A stretch of DNA of 64,000 nucleotides from Hyphomicrobiales bacterium (lineage in GTDB: Bacteria > Pseudomonadota > Alphaproteobacteria > Rhizobiales > Devosiaceae), in contig SEEL01000008.1 of NCBI GenBank assembly GCA_004144345.1, positions 1 to 64,000 on the forward strand, given 5' to 3'. Below the pieces are notes generated by a model, which ran no database searches, was not told the DNA's origin, and saw only the letters and a list, made by a program, of their open reading frames with translations. Positions 230 to 48,713 of the stretch are shown one piece after another. Numbering within the stretch: the first letter of the stretch is position 1; each line of letters opens with the position of its first letter. Position numbers and translations under genes: made by a program.

Positions 230-265
230 TTGCTGGACGAGAACAAAAGACGAACATATAAGAAC
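230..265 (+). promoter_or_regulatory. LexA-type SOS box inside a putative promoter
   Basis: GAAC occurs at 241-244 and again at 252-255 with exactly seven bases between, matching the alphaproteobacterial LexA operator GAAC-N7-GAAC. A third GAAC lies at 262-265. A possible -35 (TTGCTG, 230-235) precedes the box and AT-rich -10-like sequence (about 255-262) overlaps its end, so bound LexA would block RNA polymerase. A 32-codon ORF starts 25 bases after the second half-site. The match is seen directly; regulation by LexA is inferred. Confidence 0.75.
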
Positions 266-289
266 ACAACGGCAACAACGGAGGTCGAG

Positions 290-388
290 ATGCTGACTTT
301 TCTGAAGGACGCGATGGCGATGGTTACCCTTGTAGGGTTCACGGCCGCGATGCTGACCTGGATGGATATGGCCAGCCGACTCGTGTGA
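290..388 (+). CDS. Small SOS-regulated membrane peptide (SidA-like by context)
   Basis: This is a 32-codon ORF with a GGAGG ribosome binding site at 280-284, five bases before ATG. The peptide begins MLTFLKDAM and is one hydrophobic segment (roughly residues 8-26) with a short polar tail ending SRLV, so it should sit in the inner membrane as a single-pass peptide. A LexA-type operator lies just upstream. Caulobacter SidA is a 29-residue SOS-induced membrane peptide that blocks division at FtsW/FtsN. This ORF has the same size, topology and control, but I do not claim sequence homology. The dnaE start is 59 bases downstream with no clear terminator between, so the two may be co-transcribed. 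Confidence 0.7.
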   Translation: MLTFLKDAMAMVTLVGFTAAMLTWMDMASRLV

Positions 389-447: not shown

Positions 448-3400
448 ATGACCAATTCTCCCGGCTTCATCCACCTGCATGTGCACTCGCAGTATTCGCT
501 GCTCGAAGGGGCGCTGAAGCTCGGAACGCTGATCGATCTGGCCAAGGCCGACAAGCAGCCGGCCTTGGGGATCGCCGACAGCAACAACCTCTTTGGCGCG
601 CTGGAATTTTCGGAGAAACTCGCCGGCAAGGGCATCCAGCCGCTGCTCGGGGTGGAGCTGGCGCTCGATTTCGAGCCGATCGGCGACCGCATCATGGAGC
701 GCAACCAGGATCGCGGGCAGTTCGGCAAATCGAGCGTGGTGCTGATTGCGGCCAATGAGACCGGCTATGGCAATCTGCAGCGGCTGGTGTCGAAGGCCTA
801 TCTCGATGGCGAGACGGGGCGCGCCGCGGCGCAGCTGCATTGGCTCGAGCCCGAGATCCTCGATGGCATGATGTGCCTGTCGGGTGGGCCGGAAGGCGCG
901 ATCGACCCCTATTATGCGGCGGGCCTAGACGGGCAGGCCGAGAACCGGCTCGAAACGCTAAGGCATCTGTTCGGCGACCGGCTTTATGTCGAATTGCAGC
1001 GCCATGGACGGCAGCAGGAAGCCGGCAATGAAGCCAAGCTGATCGACTATGCCTATCGCCGCGGCGTGCCGCTCATTGCGACGAACGAGCCCTATTTCGC
1101 AACCCGCGCCGATTATGAGGCGCATGATGCGCTGCTGGCGATCGCGGCCGGGTCGGTGGTGGCGCAGACCGAGCGGCGGAAGCTGACGCCGGAGCATTAT
1201 TTCAAGTCGCGCGACGAGATGCTGGCGCTGTTCAGCGATCTGCCGGAAGCGACGGACAACACCATCGAGATCGCGCAGCGCGTGTCGTACCGGCCGCGCA
1301 CCCGCGGGCCGATCCTGCCGCGCTTTGCGGCGTCGCCCGACCAGACGGCCGAAGAGGGCATGGCGGCGGAAGCCGAGCGGCTGCGCGTCGAGGCGCATGC
1401 CGGACTGAAACGGCGTTTTGAAATCTACGGGCGCGACGAGCGCTTTACCGTCGAGCAGTATGAAGAGCGGCTCAATTTCGAGCTCGGCATCATCATCCGG
1501 ATGCAATATCCGGGCTATTTCCTGATCGTGGCCGACTTCATCCAATGGGCCAAGGCGCAGGGCATTCCGGTGGGGCCGGGGCGCGGCTCGGGCGCCGGCT
1601 CGCTGGTGGCCTATGCGACGACGATCACCGATCTCGATCCGCTGCGCTACGACCTCTTGTTCGAGCGCTTCCTGAACCCGGATCGCGTGTCGATGCCGGA
1701 CTTCGATATCGACTTCTGCCAGGACCGGCGCGGCGAGGTGATCCGCTACGTCCAGCAGAAGTACGGCGACAACCAAGTGGCCCAGATCATCACCTTCGGA
1801 ACGCTGCAGGCCAAGGCCGTGGTGCGCGACGTGGGCCGCGTGCTGCAGATGCCGTATGGGCAGGTCGACCGCATTTCCAAGATGATCCCGGCGAATCCGG
1901 CCAATCCGGTGACGCTGGCGCAGGCGCTCGACATGGAGCCGGCGCTCAAGCAGATGCGCGACAGCGACGAGCAGGTGGCCGATCTGATTGCCACGGCGCA
2001 AAAGCTCGAAGGGCTTTACCGCCACGCCTCGACGCATGCCGCCGGTATCGTGATCGGCGAGCGGCCGCTGACCGAGCTGGTGCCGATGTACCGCGACCCG
2101 CGCTCGGACATGCCGGTGACGCAGTACTCGCTCAAATGGGTGGAGCCTGCCGGGCTCGTGAAGTTCGACTTCCTCGGGCTCAAGACGCTGACCGTCATCG
2201 ACAAGGCGGTCAAGATGATCAACCGCAACGGTACGGCGTTTGCCCTGTCGGACATGCCGATCGACGATGCCGAGACATTCCAGAAGCTGACCAAGGGCGA
2301 CGTGGTTGGCGTGTTCCAGGTGGAAAGCTCGGGCATGCGGCGGGCGCTGGTCGACATGCAGCCAGACCGGTTCGAGGACCTTATCGCGCTCGTCGCGCTC
2401 TATCGCCCGGGCCCGATGGCGAACATTCCCATCTACTGCGCACGTAAGAAGGGACTCGAGGAAACGGAGTATCTGCATCCGCTACTCGAACCGATCCTCG
2501 CCCCGACGTATGGCGTCATCACCTATCAGGAGCAGGTGCAGCAGATCGCCCGGGCGCTCGCCGGCTACACGCTCGCCGAAGCCGATCTGTTGCGCCGCGC
2601 CATGGGCAAGAAGATCAAGTCGGAGATGGATGCGCAGCGCGAGCGCTTCCTCAAGGGCGCCGAGGAGCAGCACGGCATCGCCAAGGGGCTGGCCAACACG
2701 ATCTTCGACGCCTGCGCCAAATTCGCGGAGTACGGTTTCAACAAATCGCACTCGGCGCCCTATGGCTTCATCACCTACCAGACGGCGTATCTGAAGGCGC
2801 ATTTCACGCAGGAATTCATTGCCGCGTCGATGACCTACGACATGGGCAATACCGACAAGCTCAACGAATTCCGCGAGGACGCCAAGAAGCACGGCATCGA
2901 GATCGTGCCGCCGTCGGTCAACACGTCGGATGATGTGTTCACGGCGCGCGACAACAAGATCTTCTACGCCATCGGCGCGATCAAGGGCGTGGGGCAGGCG
3001 GTGGCCGAGCACATCGTCGAGGCGCGCGGCGGCACGCCGTTCGCCGATCTCGCCGATTTCGCGACGCGGGTCGATCCGCGCGTCATCAACCGGCGGACGC
3101 TCGAAACGCTGGTCAATGCCGGGGCGCTCGATTGCCTCGCGCGGCGCGAGCAGGCGTTTACGGCGATCGACCAGATCATCGCCAGCGCGCAGCGGACCAA
3201 TGACAATGCCGCCAATGGCATCATGGACATGTTCGCCACCGACGCGCCCGAGCCGATCCGGCTGACGCAGAATTTCGAGCCGTGGGGGCTGGCGGAAAAG
3301 CTCGACCGCGAGCGTAACGCCATCGGCTTCCACATCTCGGCGCATCCGCTCGACGAATATACGAGCCTGTTCGGCGCGATGAGCATCTGGTCCTACGCGC

Positions 3401-3912
3401 AGCTCGAAGCCGAGGTGAAGGAGCGCGGCGGCAGCTCGCGCAAGCTCGCCGGCACGGTGGTGAGCCGGTCGGACCGGCGGACCAAGAAGGGCACGCCGAT
3501 GATGGTGGTGGCGCTGTCGGACCCCTCGGGCAGCTATGAAGTGATCGGCTTTTCCGAGGACGTGCAGAAATACGGCCCGATCCTCCAGCCGGGCGCCAAT
3601 GTGGTGATCGGCGTCGAGGGTGAGGAGCGCGAGGACAGCGTGAGCCTCCGCATCCAGTCAGCGCAATTGCTCGACGAGGCGTCGCGCAAGGTGGGCAAGA
3701 GCCTCGAGATCGAGACCGACGACGAAAAATGCCTCGGCGCCATCGTCCAGCAGCTGAAGCCGGGCGGCAACGGCCGGGTGCGCTTCATCGTGGCGCGCGA
3801 GCAGGGCCGGCGGCTCTACGAGATCGACATCGGCGCGACCTGGCAGGTGAGCCCGTCGCTGGCGGGGGCGATCAAGTCGTTCGACGGCGTGGTGGATGTG
3901 CGGCTGAGCTAG
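448..3912 (+). CDS. dnaE: DNA polymerase III subunit alpha
   Basis: This is the replicative polymerase catalytic subunit, 1154 residues, the usual length for DnaE1. An N-terminal PHP domain opens with the HLHVHS metal-binding motif. The polymerase core carries PDFDIDF (about 417-423) and KFDFLG (about 572-577), which hold the catalytic aspartates. Helix-hairpin-helix DNA-binding sequence lies near 857-900, a plausible clamp-binding element (IMDMF) near 925-929, and an OB fold from about 1000. AGGA precedes the ATG by eight bases. It follows the SOS-controlled micro-ORF, so read-through could make it partly damage-inducible; that is inference. The PHP histidines look intact, so the domain may retain metal binding. 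Confidence 0.97.
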   Translation: MTNSPGFIHLHVHSQYSLLEGALKLGTLIDLAKADKQPALGIADSNNLFGALEFSEKLAGKGIQPLLGVELALDFEPIGDRIMERNQDRGQFGKSSVVLIAANETGYGNLQRLVSKAYLDGETGRAAAQLHWLEPEILDGMMCLSGGPEGAIDPYYAAGLDGQAENRLETLRHLFGDRLYVELQRHGRQQEAGNEAKLIDYAYRRGVPLIATNEPYFATRADYEAHDALLAIAAGSVVAQTERRKLTPEHYFKSRDEMLALFSDLPEATDNTIEIAQRVSYRPRTRGPILPRFAASPDQTAEEGMAAEAERLRVEAHAGLKRRFEIYGRDERFTVEQYEERLNFELGIIIRMQYPGYFLIVADFIQWAKAQGIPVGPGRGSGAGSLVAYATTITDLDPLRYDLLFERFLNPDRVSMPDFDIDFCQDRRGEVIRYVQQKYGDNQVAQIITFGTLQAKAVVRDVGRVLQMPYGQVDRISKMIPANPANPVTLAQALDMEPALKQMRDSDEQVADLIATAQKLEGLYRHASTHAAGIVIGERPLTELVPMYRDPRSDMPVTQYSLKWVEPAGLVKFDFLGLKTLTVIDKAVKMINRNGTAFALSDMPIDDAETFQKLTKGDVVGVFQVESSGMRRALVDMQPDRFEDLIALVALYRPGPMANIPIYCARKKGLEETEYLHPLLEPILAPTYGVITYQEQVQQIARALAGYTLAEADLLRRAMGKKIKSEMDAQRERFLKGAEEQHGIAKGLANTIFDACAKFAEYGFNKSHSAPYGFITYQTAYLKAHFTQEFIAASMTYDMGNTDKLNEFREDAKKHGIEIVPPSVNTSDDVFTARDNKIFYAIGAIKGVGQAVAEHIVEARGGTPFADLADFATRVDPRVINRRTLETLVNAGALDCLARREQAFTAIDQIIASAQRTNDNAANGIMDMFATDAPEPIRLTQNFEPWGLAEKLDRERNAIGFHISAHPLDEYTSLFGAMSIWSYAQLEAEVKERGGSSRKLAGTVVSRSDRRTKKGTPMMVVALSDPSGSYEVIGFSEDVQKYGPILQPGANVVIGVEGEEREDSVSLRIQSAQLLDEASRKVGKSLEIETDDEKCLGAIVQQLKPGGNGRVRFIVAREQGRRLYEIDIGATWQVSPSLAGAIKSFDGVVDVRLS

Positions 3913-4485: not shown

Positions 4486-4771
4486 CTACTCGAAGGCTTC
4501 CGGCCAGTCCCGTGCGGTGTGGACGACAGCGAGGATTTCAACCCGCGAGGGTGACTCGGTAGACAATGATGTAGGGCAGGTCAGCGAGAACGAGTTCCCG
4601 CGTTCCCCGGGCTCGACCGGTGCGGCCGATAAAGGGGATTCAGCGAGAAGCTGAGGACGCGCGAAGAGGTCGTGCACCAGACGGTGAGCGGCGAGGGGGG
4701 CTTTCTACCGCGACATAGTCCTGAATGGCATCGAGGTCTGATAACGCCGAGCGCGTCCAGACAACGAACAT
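4486..4771 (-). pseudogene. Frameshifted ParE-family toxin
   Basis: Read as it stands, the ORF starting MFVVWTRSALSDLDAI stops early. Three single-base corrections rebuild a ParE/RelE-superfamily toxin of about 95 residues. They are one fewer base in the six-base run at 4695-4700, one more in the run at 4634-4637, and one fewer at 4542-4544. Recovered segments include VHDLFARPQLLAESP, LPYIIVYRV and ILAVVHTARDWP, all typical of the family. The start overlaps the antitoxin stop (TGATG), as in intact operons. All three lesions fall in G/C homopolymers, so it is either a real decayed toxin or a set of sequencing errors. Confidence 0.75.
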
Positions 4772-5007
4772 CAGCTTGGGCGGTATTTGTTGAGGATAGC
4801 CTCAATCTCGCGTTCGGAGGCGAACTGACCCTGCTCGGCCTCCGCGAGGCCACTGGCAACGCGCTCAAGAAAGCGCTCCTGCCAGGCGAGGGAACGGCCA
4901 TGCTCAAGCGCGTCGGCGATGATCTGGGCGGGCGTCAGGCTTGACCGCGCGGCGATAGCCTCGACGCGGGCGCGCAGATTGTCGGGGAGGTCCATCTGGT
5001 CGCTCAT
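4771..5007 (-). CDS. ParD/CopG-like antitoxin
   Basis: The 78-residue protein begins MSDQMDLPDNLRARVEAIAA. It resembles antitoxins that pair with ParE-type toxins: a DNA-binding N-terminal half (SSLTPAQIIADALEHG) and an acidic helical C-terminus (SEREIEAILNKYRPS) that would wrap the toxin. It lies immediately upstream of and overlaps the broken toxin gene. If the toxin really is inactive, this is an orphan antitoxin, possibly kept to neutralise related toxins elsewhere or simply not yet lost. The family call rests on operon context and the C-terminal pattern. Confidence 0.7.
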   Translation of the reverse strand: MSDQMDLPDNLRARVEAIAARSSLTPAQIIADALEHGRSLAWQERFLERVASGLAEAEQGQFASEREIEAILNKYRPS

Positions 5008-5065
5008 GGGCAGACTATGCCAGCTTTAGCGGACCAAGTGAACGAAAACCGAACGTCGTGCCGCC

Positions 5066-17942: not shown

Positions 17943-19207
17943 TCGCGGGCCACGGCGCCGTGGTAGAGTTGGCGCGGGCGGCCGATCTTCTTCTGCGGGT
18001 CGCCGATCATTTCCTTCCACTGCGCGATCCAGCCCGAGGTGCGGCTGAGCGCGAAGATGGCGGTGAACATCGAGGTGGGGAAGCCGATCGCCTCGAGGAT
18101 GATGCCCGAGTAGAAATCGACGTTGGGATAGAGCTTGCGCGAGATGAAATATTCATCGGTGAGCGCGATGTGCTCGAGCTGCTGCGCCACCTGCAGGAGC
18201 GGGTTGTCCTCGACGCCGAGCAGGGCCAGCACTTCCTTGGCGGTCTGCTGCATCACCGTGGCGCGCGGATCGTAGTTCTTGTAGACGCGATGGCCAAAGC
18301 CCATCAGGCGGATGCCGCTCGACTTATCCTTCACCTTGGCAATGAAGTCCGGGATGTTGTCCGGCGTGCCGATCTGCTTGAGCATGTTGAGCGCCGCCTC
18401 ATTGGCGCCGCCATGGGCCGGGCCCCAGAGGCAGGCTACGCCGGCGGCGATGCAGGCGAAGGGGTTGGCGTCGGACGAGCCAGCGAGACGCACGGTCGAG
18501 GTCGATGCGTTCTGCTCGTGATCGGCGTGAAGGGTGAAGATCAGATCCATCGCGCGGGCAATGGTGGGGTTGATCTTGTATTCCTCGGCCGGGACCGAGA
18601 AGCACATGTTGAGGAAGTTGCTGGCGTAGTCGAGATCGTTGCGGGGATACACGAAGGGCTGGCCCACCGAGTATTTGTAGGCCATCGCGACGATGGTCGG
18701 GATCTTGGCGATGAGGCGGATCGAGGCGATCTCGCGCTGCATCGGGTCGGTGATGTCGGTCGAGTCGTGGTAGAAGGCGGCCATGGCGCCGACGACGCCG
18801 CAGACCACCGCCATCGGATGCGCGTCACGGCGGAAGCCGCGATAGAGGAAGTGCATCTGCTCGTGCAGCATCGTGTGCGTGGTGACGCGATGCTTGAAAT
18901 CGGCCATCTGCGCCTTGTCGGGCAGATTGCCGTAGAGCAGCAGGAAGCAGACCTCGAGGTAGTTCGACTTGTCGGCCAGCTGGTCGATGGGATAGCCGCG
19001 ATACATCAGCTCGCCCTTGTCGCCATCGATGTAGGTGATGGTGCTGTCGGTGGCGGCCGTCGAGGTGAAGCCGGGGTCGTAAGTGAACATCCCGGTCTTG
19101 GCGTAGAGCGTTCGGATATCGACCACGTCGGGACCGACGCTGCCGGACAGCACCGGAAACTCGTAGGTCTCGTCACCAATGGTGAGTTTCGCGGTCGTAT
19201 CTGACAT
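17918..19207 (-). CDS. gltA: Citrate synthase
   Basis: This enzyme condenses acetyl-CoA and oxaloacetate at the entry to the TCA cycle. The ATG at 19207 follows AGGAGAG and gives a 429-residue type II (hexameric, NADH-regulated class) enzyme. The catalytic His/His/Asp are in [23 protein letters not shown] and NVDFYSGI. The conserved [10 protein letters not shown] segment is present. Its 3' end overlaps lpxB tail-to-tail by 25 bases. The 145 bases between gltX and gltA should include its promoter. Confidence 0.97.
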
Positions 19208-38890: not shown

Positions 38891-39208
38891 ATGGCGGACG
38901 ATATCTTTTCGACCGCCGACTGGCGGGACGTTCCCAAGGATATGTCGAAGCCGCTCCAGGCGCTGTGGTGGATCCGCAAGGGCGAGTTCCGCGTCGGCGC
39001 CGAGTGGGAAGAGGCGCATGTCATCGTCCAGGCGATGGAAGGCGTGGCCGAATTCGACTGGGTGCACGCGCTGCTGCACTGGATCGAAGCCGACATGGGC
39101 AATGCCGATTATTGGTACCGCCGCGCCGGCAAGAAGCGCTCGGCCCCGAGCGTGAAAGCGGAATGGGAAGTGATGGCCCAGACGCTGAGCGGCGTGACCA
39201 AGCACTAG
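38891..39208 (+). CDS. Conserved hypothetical protein
   Basis: The 105-residue protein begins MADDIFSTADWRDVPKDM and is rich in Trp, His and Glu. It includes WEEAHVIVQAMEGVAEFDWVHALLHWIEADMGNADYWYRRAGK-type sequence with possible metal-binding Glu and His residues. It starts two bases after gatA, so it is probably co-translated. No function can be assigned. Confidence 0.8.
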   Translation: MADDIFSTADWRDVPKDMSKPLQALWWIRKGEFRVGAEWEEAHVIVQAMEGVAEFDWVHALLHWIEADMGNADYWYRRAGKKRSAPSVKAEWEVMAQTLSGVTKH

Positions 39209-39217
39209 AGCGCCTGA

Positions 39218-39805
39218 CTAGGTCGGGGTAGTGCCGTCCTCGCCGCCAATCACTGCCCTGACCTCGGCGACCGTTGCGAGCAGCGGCATGATGAGGTCCG
39301 CATACTGCACGCGCCAAGCCTCTGCCTGCTCCGCCGTGGGCGGTTCCGCCCAGGCCAGGAGTTCCTGCAGGAGAGTATTTCTCGCCGTGGCGAGCCCCTT
39401 CAGCTTGTCGAGGTGAGGCTGCAACTCGCTGTCGATGCTGGGCTGGCTGACAATGAGTGAAGTGATGGCCGCGATGACCAGATCGTGAGTGAGGTTGGCA
39501 TAGTCCTTTAACGCGGCCCAGCGCGCCGGCGTGGGATTCTTGATGTAAGACCGCATCTCCGGTTCGAAGAACGCGTAGTTGGAAGTTCCCAGCGTGTAAT
39601 ATTGCGTGAGGACGTAGTCGATGTTGCGCTGGGCAACCGCGAGACGTTCGCCGGCATCCTTGATGAAGATGCACTCGACTTTGACGTCGCCGTTCACGTC
39701 CTCGATGACTGGACTGCAATCGCCAAAGGTCACTTGCGCCAATATGGGAGGCGGCACCGTCGCCAGCGCGACCAAGACGAAGACAATGGCCGCTCGAGTC
39801 CTCAC
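39218..39805 (-). CDS. Secreted hypothetical protein with GDxSPVI motif
   Basis: The 195-residue product starts at a GTG that overlaps the stop of its upstream neighbour (GTGA). A signal peptide (about 1-24) ends at ILAQ. The mature protein begins at once with VTFGDCSPVIEDVNGDVKV, the same pattern found at the C-terminus of the neighbouring membrane protein. The rest (about 45-185) is mainly helical, with NIDYVLTQYYTLGTS and PHLDKLKGLA. I do not recognise a family. By eye the block is less GC-rich than its surroundings, consistent with an accessory insertion. Confidence 0.7.
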   Translation of the reverse strand: MRTRAAIVFVLVALATVPPPILAQVTFGDCSPVIEDVNGDVKVECIFIKDAGERLAVAQRNIDYVLTQYYTLGTSNYAFFEPEMRSYIKNPTPARWAALKDYANLTHDLVIAAITSLIVSQPSIDSELQPHLDKLKGLATARNTLLQELLAWAEPPTAEQAEAWRVQYADLIMPLLATVAEVRAVIGGEDGTTPT

Positions 39806-48064: not shown

Positions 48065-48643
48065 CTATTTCTTGCCCACCGCCAGTTCGGCCCGGATGGC
48101 CGGGTCGTCGTCGAGGAAGGACGGCTCGACCGTCGCGCCGACGGCGTCGAAATAGCGGCTCATAAAGCTGCGGAAGGACGCGGCGAGGGCGATGTCGGCG
48201 ATGTTGATGTCGGTGAAGCCGTGGGCGCGCAGCGCCGCGATATCGGCTTCGGTGATCTTGCTCGCATCGATGGCGATCTGCTCGGCATAGGCGAGCATGG
48301 CGACGTCCTTCGGCTCCAGCCCGGCATTGCGGAAGTCACGCTGGATGGCGAGCACCTTGTCGCGACCGAGGGCCTTCGACAGCGTGTAGAAATAGACGTG
48401 GCTGCAATAGCTTGACGGGATGTGCTTGGCGGCGATCAGCGTGATGAGCCGGAAGTTGATGAGGCCGAGCGAGCAGCCGTCGCGCATCTGGTGCAGCAGA
48501 TGCTCGATGGGCAGGATCATGTCGGGACGGGCCGACCAGCAGCTGGTCGCCTCCATCACCCGGCCCATGGCGGCGATCTCCGCCTGATACATGCCGGCGA
48601 GCTCGCCGGTGGCTTCCGCCGGGCTGATGGTCTTCAAGTACAT
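48065..48643 (-). CDS. AhpD-like / carboxymuconolactone-decarboxylase-fold protein
   Basis: The 192-residue all-helical protein resembles the AhpD-like peroxidase superfamily, with LINFRLITLIAAKHIPSSYCSHVYFYTLSKALG. Typical members carry CxxC followed by His. Here only a single Cys plus His remain (YCSHVY), so a redox-disulfide mechanism is doubtful. Substrate unknown. Confidence 0.8.
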   Translation of the reverse strand: MYLKTISPAEATGELAGMYQAEIAAMGRVMEATSCWSARPDMILPIEHLLHQMRDGCSLGLINFRLITLIAAKHIPSSYCSHVYFYTLSKALGRDKVLAIQRDFRNAGLEPKDVAMLAYAEQIAIDASKITEADIAALRAHGFTDINIADIALAASFRSFMSRYFDAVGATVEPSFLDDDPAIRAELAVGKK

Positions 48644-48713
48644 GGCCGATCCCTCCGTATCCCCGAAGCTGCACCGACCTGCCTGAACGCCGATTGAACC
48701 GTCCGCCCGCCGG

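Follow-up and report, generated by a model that had tools for sequence, protein, structure and literature searches.

The window analysed here is the whole stretch of 64,000 nucleotides, and its start is the first base of its contig. Close to this end, on the plus strand, an ORF of 32 codons (290-388; ATG at 290, stop at 386-388) encodes MLTFLKDAMAMVTLVGFTAAMLTWMDMASRLV, a predicted single-helix membrane peptide that we place, as a probable homologue, in the SidA family. A GGAGG ribosome-binding site (280-284), of which GGAG is kept in the alignment of the window's own family, the Devosiaceae, lies 5 nt 5' of the ATG, and a gap of 59 nt (389-447) separates the stop codon from the start of the downstream neighbour, dnaE (448-3912, plus strand), which encodes the replicative DNA polymerase III alpha subunit (TIGR00594, 1153.6 bits). 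Upstream of the ORF, and likewise on the plus strand, a -35-like element, TGGACG (234-239), is followed after 17 nt by a -10-like element, TATAAG (257-262); both were read by eye and together they have 9 of 12 consensus bases. The 17-nt spacer is filled by an exact LexA-type operator of the form GAAC-N7-GAAC (GAACAAAAGACGAAC, 241-255, plus strand). A third GAAC (262-265, plus strand), 10 bp after the second, is a possible extra half-site, and in the own-family alignment it is conserved at a threshold of 70%. The promoter scan returned no promoter-like site at 234-262, an omission explained by its demand that the second hexamer end in T.

The longest in-frame version of the peptide ORF starts at 227 and has 53 codons; the ATG at 290 is favoured because of the ribosome-binding site, the position of the promoter and the conservation. 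On the 53-codon frame, which ends with the peptide, the Kyte-Doolittle maximum mean is 1.7 over 17 residues, and from hydropathy the peptide is predicted to form a single inner-membrane helix, as is expected of SidA, to which its 32 residues also bring it close in size (~29 residues). Coordinates, hydropathy and conservation all agree with the preliminary description of this DNA, which had pointed to a 32-codon, single-helix ORF with a GGAGG site before dnaE. The window peptide has no match in Pfam or NCBIfam. Among 24 relatives searched, three have a weak match to YmiC (best E 0.0046) and one has a weak match to DUF7186 (E 0.043), so that annotation is likely to miss the peptide.

The LexA-type operator and its promoter

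By itself, the box is weak evidence, because the four exact GAAC-N7-GAAC matches observed in the 64-kb window, with 1.5 expected, are not significant (7 of 100 shuffles reach 4). The own-family alignment of upstream sequences reads T.GAC..GAAC.......GAAC.TA.AAGAAC...GGAG, in which T.GAC is nearly invariant and the box is followed by a conserved TA.AAG block. TNGAC ends 2-7 nt 5' of the box in 56 of the 77 loci that combine a box with an ORF, compared with ~6.5 expected over all 212 regions.

One gene of this genome scores over the family cut-off for lexA; it lies on the same contig as the window, and in its promoter the operator motif is present in both orientations, with one copy of each (GAACATAGGCAGAAC and GTTCAGCCTTTGTTC). 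The recA promoter of this genome has a one-mismatch box behind TTGAC (by eye), with no exact box in the fetched recA locus. The consensus given for Caulobacter LexA is GTTCN7GTTC (PMC4211646; also in a review table, PMC9578287). With a box that overlaps the promoter and occupies its spacer, that is conserved in the family, and that recurs as a putative operator at the genome's own lexA, the LexA-type control suggested in the preliminary description appears well founded, and the promoter is probably LexA-controlled, as is expected of a SidA gene. Separately, we observed that the GAAC repeats of Sinorhizobium meliloti are set at an 11-bp step, whereas the third GAAC of the own family follows after 10 bp; both arrangements appear to be tandem or overlapping LexA sites.

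Conservation in the Devosiaceae

When 61 genomes were searched with the peptide, 37 gave a match at E<=10 (own family, 34/37). Three weak order-level matches from this search were not considered credible. With respect to the own-family misses, G027 does have the ORF upstream of dnaE (locus L063), and no start of dnaE is present in the assemblies of G004 and G025. The regions upstream of own-family dnaE genes were then scored for a short hydrophobic ORF within 120 nt after a sense-strand box, the window being counted once and two loci (L015 and L018) being omitted since their dnaE lies outside the fetched sequence. An exact box with such an ORF is present in 30 of 33 regions, and all 33 have the pair when one mismatch is allowed; the reverse strands of the same 33 regions, used as a control, gave 0 exact cases and 3 with one mismatch. 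One of the exact 30, L029, owes its exact match to a second box; the copy in its promoter spacer has one mismatch.

Six columns are invariant in 24 own-family peptides (K6, D7, A10, F17, W24 and D26). Across 18 sequences of the genus, the in-frame mean pS is 0.44 and the mean pN 0.16, i.e. a pN/pS of 0.36, whereas the two alternative frames of the same sequences give values of 1.06 and 2.08; judged by these substitution patterns, the ORF is under codon-level selection. The preliminary description had proposed to look for the same box and ORF in related genomes and had tied its case to conservation of the peptide in close relatives. Both are borne out: the box, the ORF and the conserved peptide recur in 33/33 own-family regions, 30 of them with an exact box.

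The Caulobacteraceae ORF and its relation to SidA

The Caulobacter loci were reached with an LpxI chain, which we take to be from Caulobacter, as query, with a 100% match in C. vibrioides; for 25 of the 80 LpxI loci, dnaE was located in the corresponding genome, and 25 named Caulobacteraceae were examined. The families of G048 and G249 had been considered as candidates for the Caulobacteraceae and were set aside: one comprises 8 genomes, and in the other 13 of 60 gave matches at E<=1, most of them noise. In C. vibrioides DSM 9893, a box is followed by a 29-codon membrane ORF directly before dnaE, and a similar ORF precedes dnaE in all 25 Caulobacteraceae, with alignment lengths of 29-30 residues (21 peptides for the 25 loci). 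An exact box is present in 16 of the 25 regions, and the other 9 have a one-mismatch box only. The box-plus-ORF test with one mismatch allowed is passed by 24 of the 25; the remaining region (L231) has two exact boxes and an ORF that fails the hydrophobicity filter.

By locus number, we take dnaE to be the neighbour of sidA. On the grounds of its length, operator, hydrophobicity and SOS logic, the 29-codon ORF of C. vibrioides is very likely SidA, and it is taken as SidA in the comparisons that follow. Published SidA is described as a 29-aa, SOS-induced inner-membrane peptide that acts on FtsW (PMC4211646), and its gene is given as CCNA_02004 (PMC10769358). A correction of its annotated start has been reported (PMC4117421), which fits with the longer in-frame ORF seen here. 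The window peptide and the C. vibrioides ORF are alike as membrane peptides of ~30 residues with a LexA-type direct-repeat operator and a position directly upstream of dnaE, and they have in common the core motif [KR][DE]xxA(x6)F. They differ in length (29 residues in SidA, 32 in the window peptide), in taxonomic family and in the C-terminal half, which is built around FVWMM in C. vibrioides but around LTWMD in the window peptide.

Profile-profile comparison of the own-family and Caulobacteraceae peptides gave a P value of 2.4e-6 and a probability of 88.9 over 19 columns. In HMM searches of fragments, in which the window is present twice (as L001 and L090), the top 23 hits of the own-family HMM among 572 fragments are 23 of the 25 Caulobacteraceae ORFs (E 0.004 to 3.3), and the top 21 hits of the Caulobacteraceae HMM among 881 fragments are own-family ORFs (best E 0.0024). 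The latter HMM recovered 25 of the 33 own-family ORFs in all; at E<=10, 8 of the 33 were missed and the window's own ORF was absent. When the own-family HMM was run on 3978 fragments from the regions of other families, the first 18 hits were on the forward strand (best E 6.9e-5) and the first reverse-strand hit had an E value of 1.

Compared pairwise, the window and C. vibrioides peptides score above every one of 1000 shuffles; the remaining single comparisons are weaker, with p values of 0.015 for a genus relative versus C. vibrioides, 0.16 for the window versus S. meliloti and 0.45 for C. vibrioides versus S. meliloti. These results, with their weak E values and with the C. vibrioides ORF standing for SidA, suggest that the window peptide is probably homologous to SidA. 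The comparison with SidA in the preliminary description, made on size and topology, can thus be extended to a probable homology with shared gene order.

The rest of the Alphaproteobacteria

The class was recognised as the Alphaproteobacteria through G123, a genome labelled as belonging to it, in which dnaE has the coordinates found in named Brevundimonas halotolerans. Among the named dnaE genes of the plasmid collection, that of Sinorhizobium is nearest to the window's (54.9%), so that the window probably comes from the Hyphomicrobiales. A class-wide search with the own-family profile alone gave, beyond the own genome, best hits near noise (E 0.01 and weaker). Some of these weak hits lie upstream of dnaE, and dnaE was therefore located first and the DNA upstream of it then read. 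The class-wide dnaE set comprises the stronger matches among those listed, with weaker or unlisted dnaE hits left out, and two of the 100 fetched regions (L274 and L277) are short at contig ends. An exact sense-strand box with a hydrophobic ORF is present in 13 of 25 regions from the same order and in 19 of 128 from elsewhere in the class; with one mismatch allowed, these counts become 14 of 25 and 21 of 128. The corresponding reverse-strand controls gave 0 and 0 for the exact box and 1 and 0 with one mismatch. If boxes of either orientation are counted, with the window again present twice, 13/25 and 20/128 regions qualify, compared with 3/25 and 3/128 in the reverse-complement controls. The shuffle expectation for a box with an ORF is 0 to 0.3 regions per group. 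The short motif is present in 7 of the 13 same-order loci and in 6 of the 20 from the rest of the class (either-orientation count), so some of the box-ORF loci may be unrelated.

In S. meliloti, a 28-codon ORF (MADFVRDLAAFASMSLFIVSISVIALGL) lies behind two overlapping boxes before dnaE, and Shinella has a similar ORF behind one box; none was found upstream of dnaE in Methylobacterium bullatum. Ribo-seq and proteogenomics of S. meliloti have placed sORF25, in the 5'-UTR of dnaE1, among novel sORFs for which uORF roles are suggested (PMC10117765). Judged by position, i.e. behind the GAAC boxes before dnaE, the 28-codon ORF is possibly sORF25. The published description of sORF25 differs from ours in that it is named as a possible uORF, the main text of that article being without SOS, LexA or SidA (PMC10117765).

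Discussion

Read from its DNA, the locus has an operator, the geometry of a promoter, a codon-selected ORF of membrane-helix composition, and a gene order and sequence similarity that it shares with Caulobacter. We consider it likely that it encodes a SidA-family SOS division inhibitor, repressed by LexA and directed at septal FtsW/FtsI/FtsN. In the scheme that we propose, the steps that we infer are LexA binding, damage induction, translation here, membrane insertion, the FtsW target and division arrest. LexA dimers on 241-255 would occlude the DNA that separates the -35 element from the -10 element and keep the promoter shut; on DNA damage, RecA would trigger self-cleavage of LexA, the loss of which would allow a short transcript, provided with a strong ribosome site, to be made and, from it, the 32-residue inner-membrane peptide. 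As with SidA, the most likely target would be the late-acting proteins of septal wall synthesis (FtsW/FtsI/FtsN), which the peptide would reach within the membrane, and constriction would be delayed until LexA accumulates again. A further division inhibitor, DidA of C. crescentus, is described as a small single-helix protein acting on the FtsW/I/N complex (PMC4211646); the window peptide resembles it as a small single-helix peptide, whereas DidA has 71 residues, is SOS-independent and DriD-induced, and binds FtsN.

Other readings of the locus were weighed against a SidA-family inhibitor. That a chance ORF stands beside a chance box would fit with the box by itself not being significant in the window, but this explanation is already contradicted by the 33/33 family regions, by the shuffle expectation and by codon-level selection, and we give it practically no weight. 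It could also be that the peptide is an SOS-induced membrane peptide with another target, which, in the manner of TisB or DinQ, would harm the membrane and slow growth instead of binding FtsW. TisB of Escherichia coli is a small SOS-controlled single-helix peptide, and DinQ, also from E. coli, is described as an SOS-regulated, toxic, single transmembrane peptide (PMC3567139), and the window peptide is of the same size class and probably under the same type of control. TisB and DinQ, which we set apart by description, come from other taxa and have another proposed action, however, and both the sequence similarity and the gene order of the window peptide match the Caulobacter ORF taken as SidA; in addition, the six invariant columns (K, D, A, F, W and D) exceed what a hydrophobic stretch would need. 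We regard a peptide of this type as unlikely.

The position before dnaE raises the alternative that the ORF is an upstream ORF, or encodes a leader peptide, the translation of which tunes dnaE expression. The order of peptide gene and dnaE is kept in most own-family loci and in 25/25 Caulobacteraceae loci, including that of C. vibrioides, a scan of 389-447 found no terminator-like site between the peptide gene and dnaE, and a uORF role has been raised by the authors who described sORF25 in the 5'-UTR of S. meliloti dnaE1 (PMC10117765), all of which is consistent with such a role. Selection, however, acts on the amino-acid sequence of the membrane peptide, and the one own-family exception to the upstream-of-dnaE position, G031, keeps the peptide gene with a one-mismatch box 327 kb from dnaE, adjoining lolD and folD (genes named by eye), with neither box nor peptide in the 900 bp upstream of its dnaE. 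In two other genomes (loci L027 and L063), ~470 and ~490 bp separate the peptide gene from dnaE. Because of the separation in G031 and these long gaps, a leader-peptide role is disfavoured, to the point that we consider it very improbable, and coupling to dnaE would be secondary at most; the same loci speak against the suggestion of the preliminary description that the placement couples division arrest to dnaE expression. For a SidA-family inhibitor, read-through into dnaE is possible, but is probably not the point of the arrangement.

The gap between the two genes gives a hint of a separate dnaE promoter, in that TTGGC-N17-19-YAVRAN, a pattern chosen post hoc from the alignment, occurs in the gap of 13 of 33 relatives compared with 0.045 expected from shuffles, in a count for which the gap of L063 was cut wrongly; the pattern is absent from the window gap (389-447). 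In 27 of 33 relatives, a TGTG..A-like sequence, which resembles a DnaA box, was also observed no more than 60 nt from the stop codon of the peptide gene. The gap motifs possibly represent a dnaE promoter or DnaA control, with the proviso that the pattern is post hoc.

On a wider scale, we lean towards the view that much of the Alphaproteobacteria (the Devosiaceae, Caulobacteraceae, Rhizobiaceae and other families) inherited a LexA-driven SidA checkpoint beside dnaE from a common ancestor, that it has been missed by annotation owing to its size (~26-36 codons), and that it may be how division is generally inhibited in the SOS response of this class, some copies having moved, operator-less, to phage-like surroundings, where they could serve a mobile element. 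If so, one family, defined by operator, position and a short motif, would represent a damage checkpoint in many alphaproteobacterial families, and the function of an unexplained small ORF of S. meliloti would become testable. A literature search, mostly at the level of titles and the beginnings of abstracts and with the original SidA and older LexA-regulon papers outside it, found no SidA relatives outside Caulobacter. The window peptide is of a kind already described; what is new is how widely it occurs across the class, for which an earlier report is possible.

Two second SidA-like peptides or stretches were observed next to matches to phage families, one (L357, contig C23 of G005, ~39128-39232) beside phrog_249 and the other (L358, contig C11 of G034, ~18288-18377) beside phrog_6186 and phrog_26364, both of unknown function. 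No exact LexA box was found in the fetched 3.2-3.5 kb of either locus, and searches of phage and plasmid records with the peptides found no match; the two are possibly mobile-element copies.

The window also contains other exact GAAC-N7-GAAC boxes. A second one (5040-5054) lies ~33 bp ahead of the start codon of a 78-codon minus-strand ORF (4771-5007) with no Pfam match, which is followed by a 43-codon ORF (4640-4771) with a weak, below-cut-off match to ParE toxins; the stretch from 4640 to 5054, near rpsB, may be what is left, under SOS control, of a toxin-antitoxin pair. A further exact box (48685-48699) lies ~42 bp upstream of a minus-strand ORF of 192 codons (48065-48643), which had no Pfam match and is possibly a further SOS gene.
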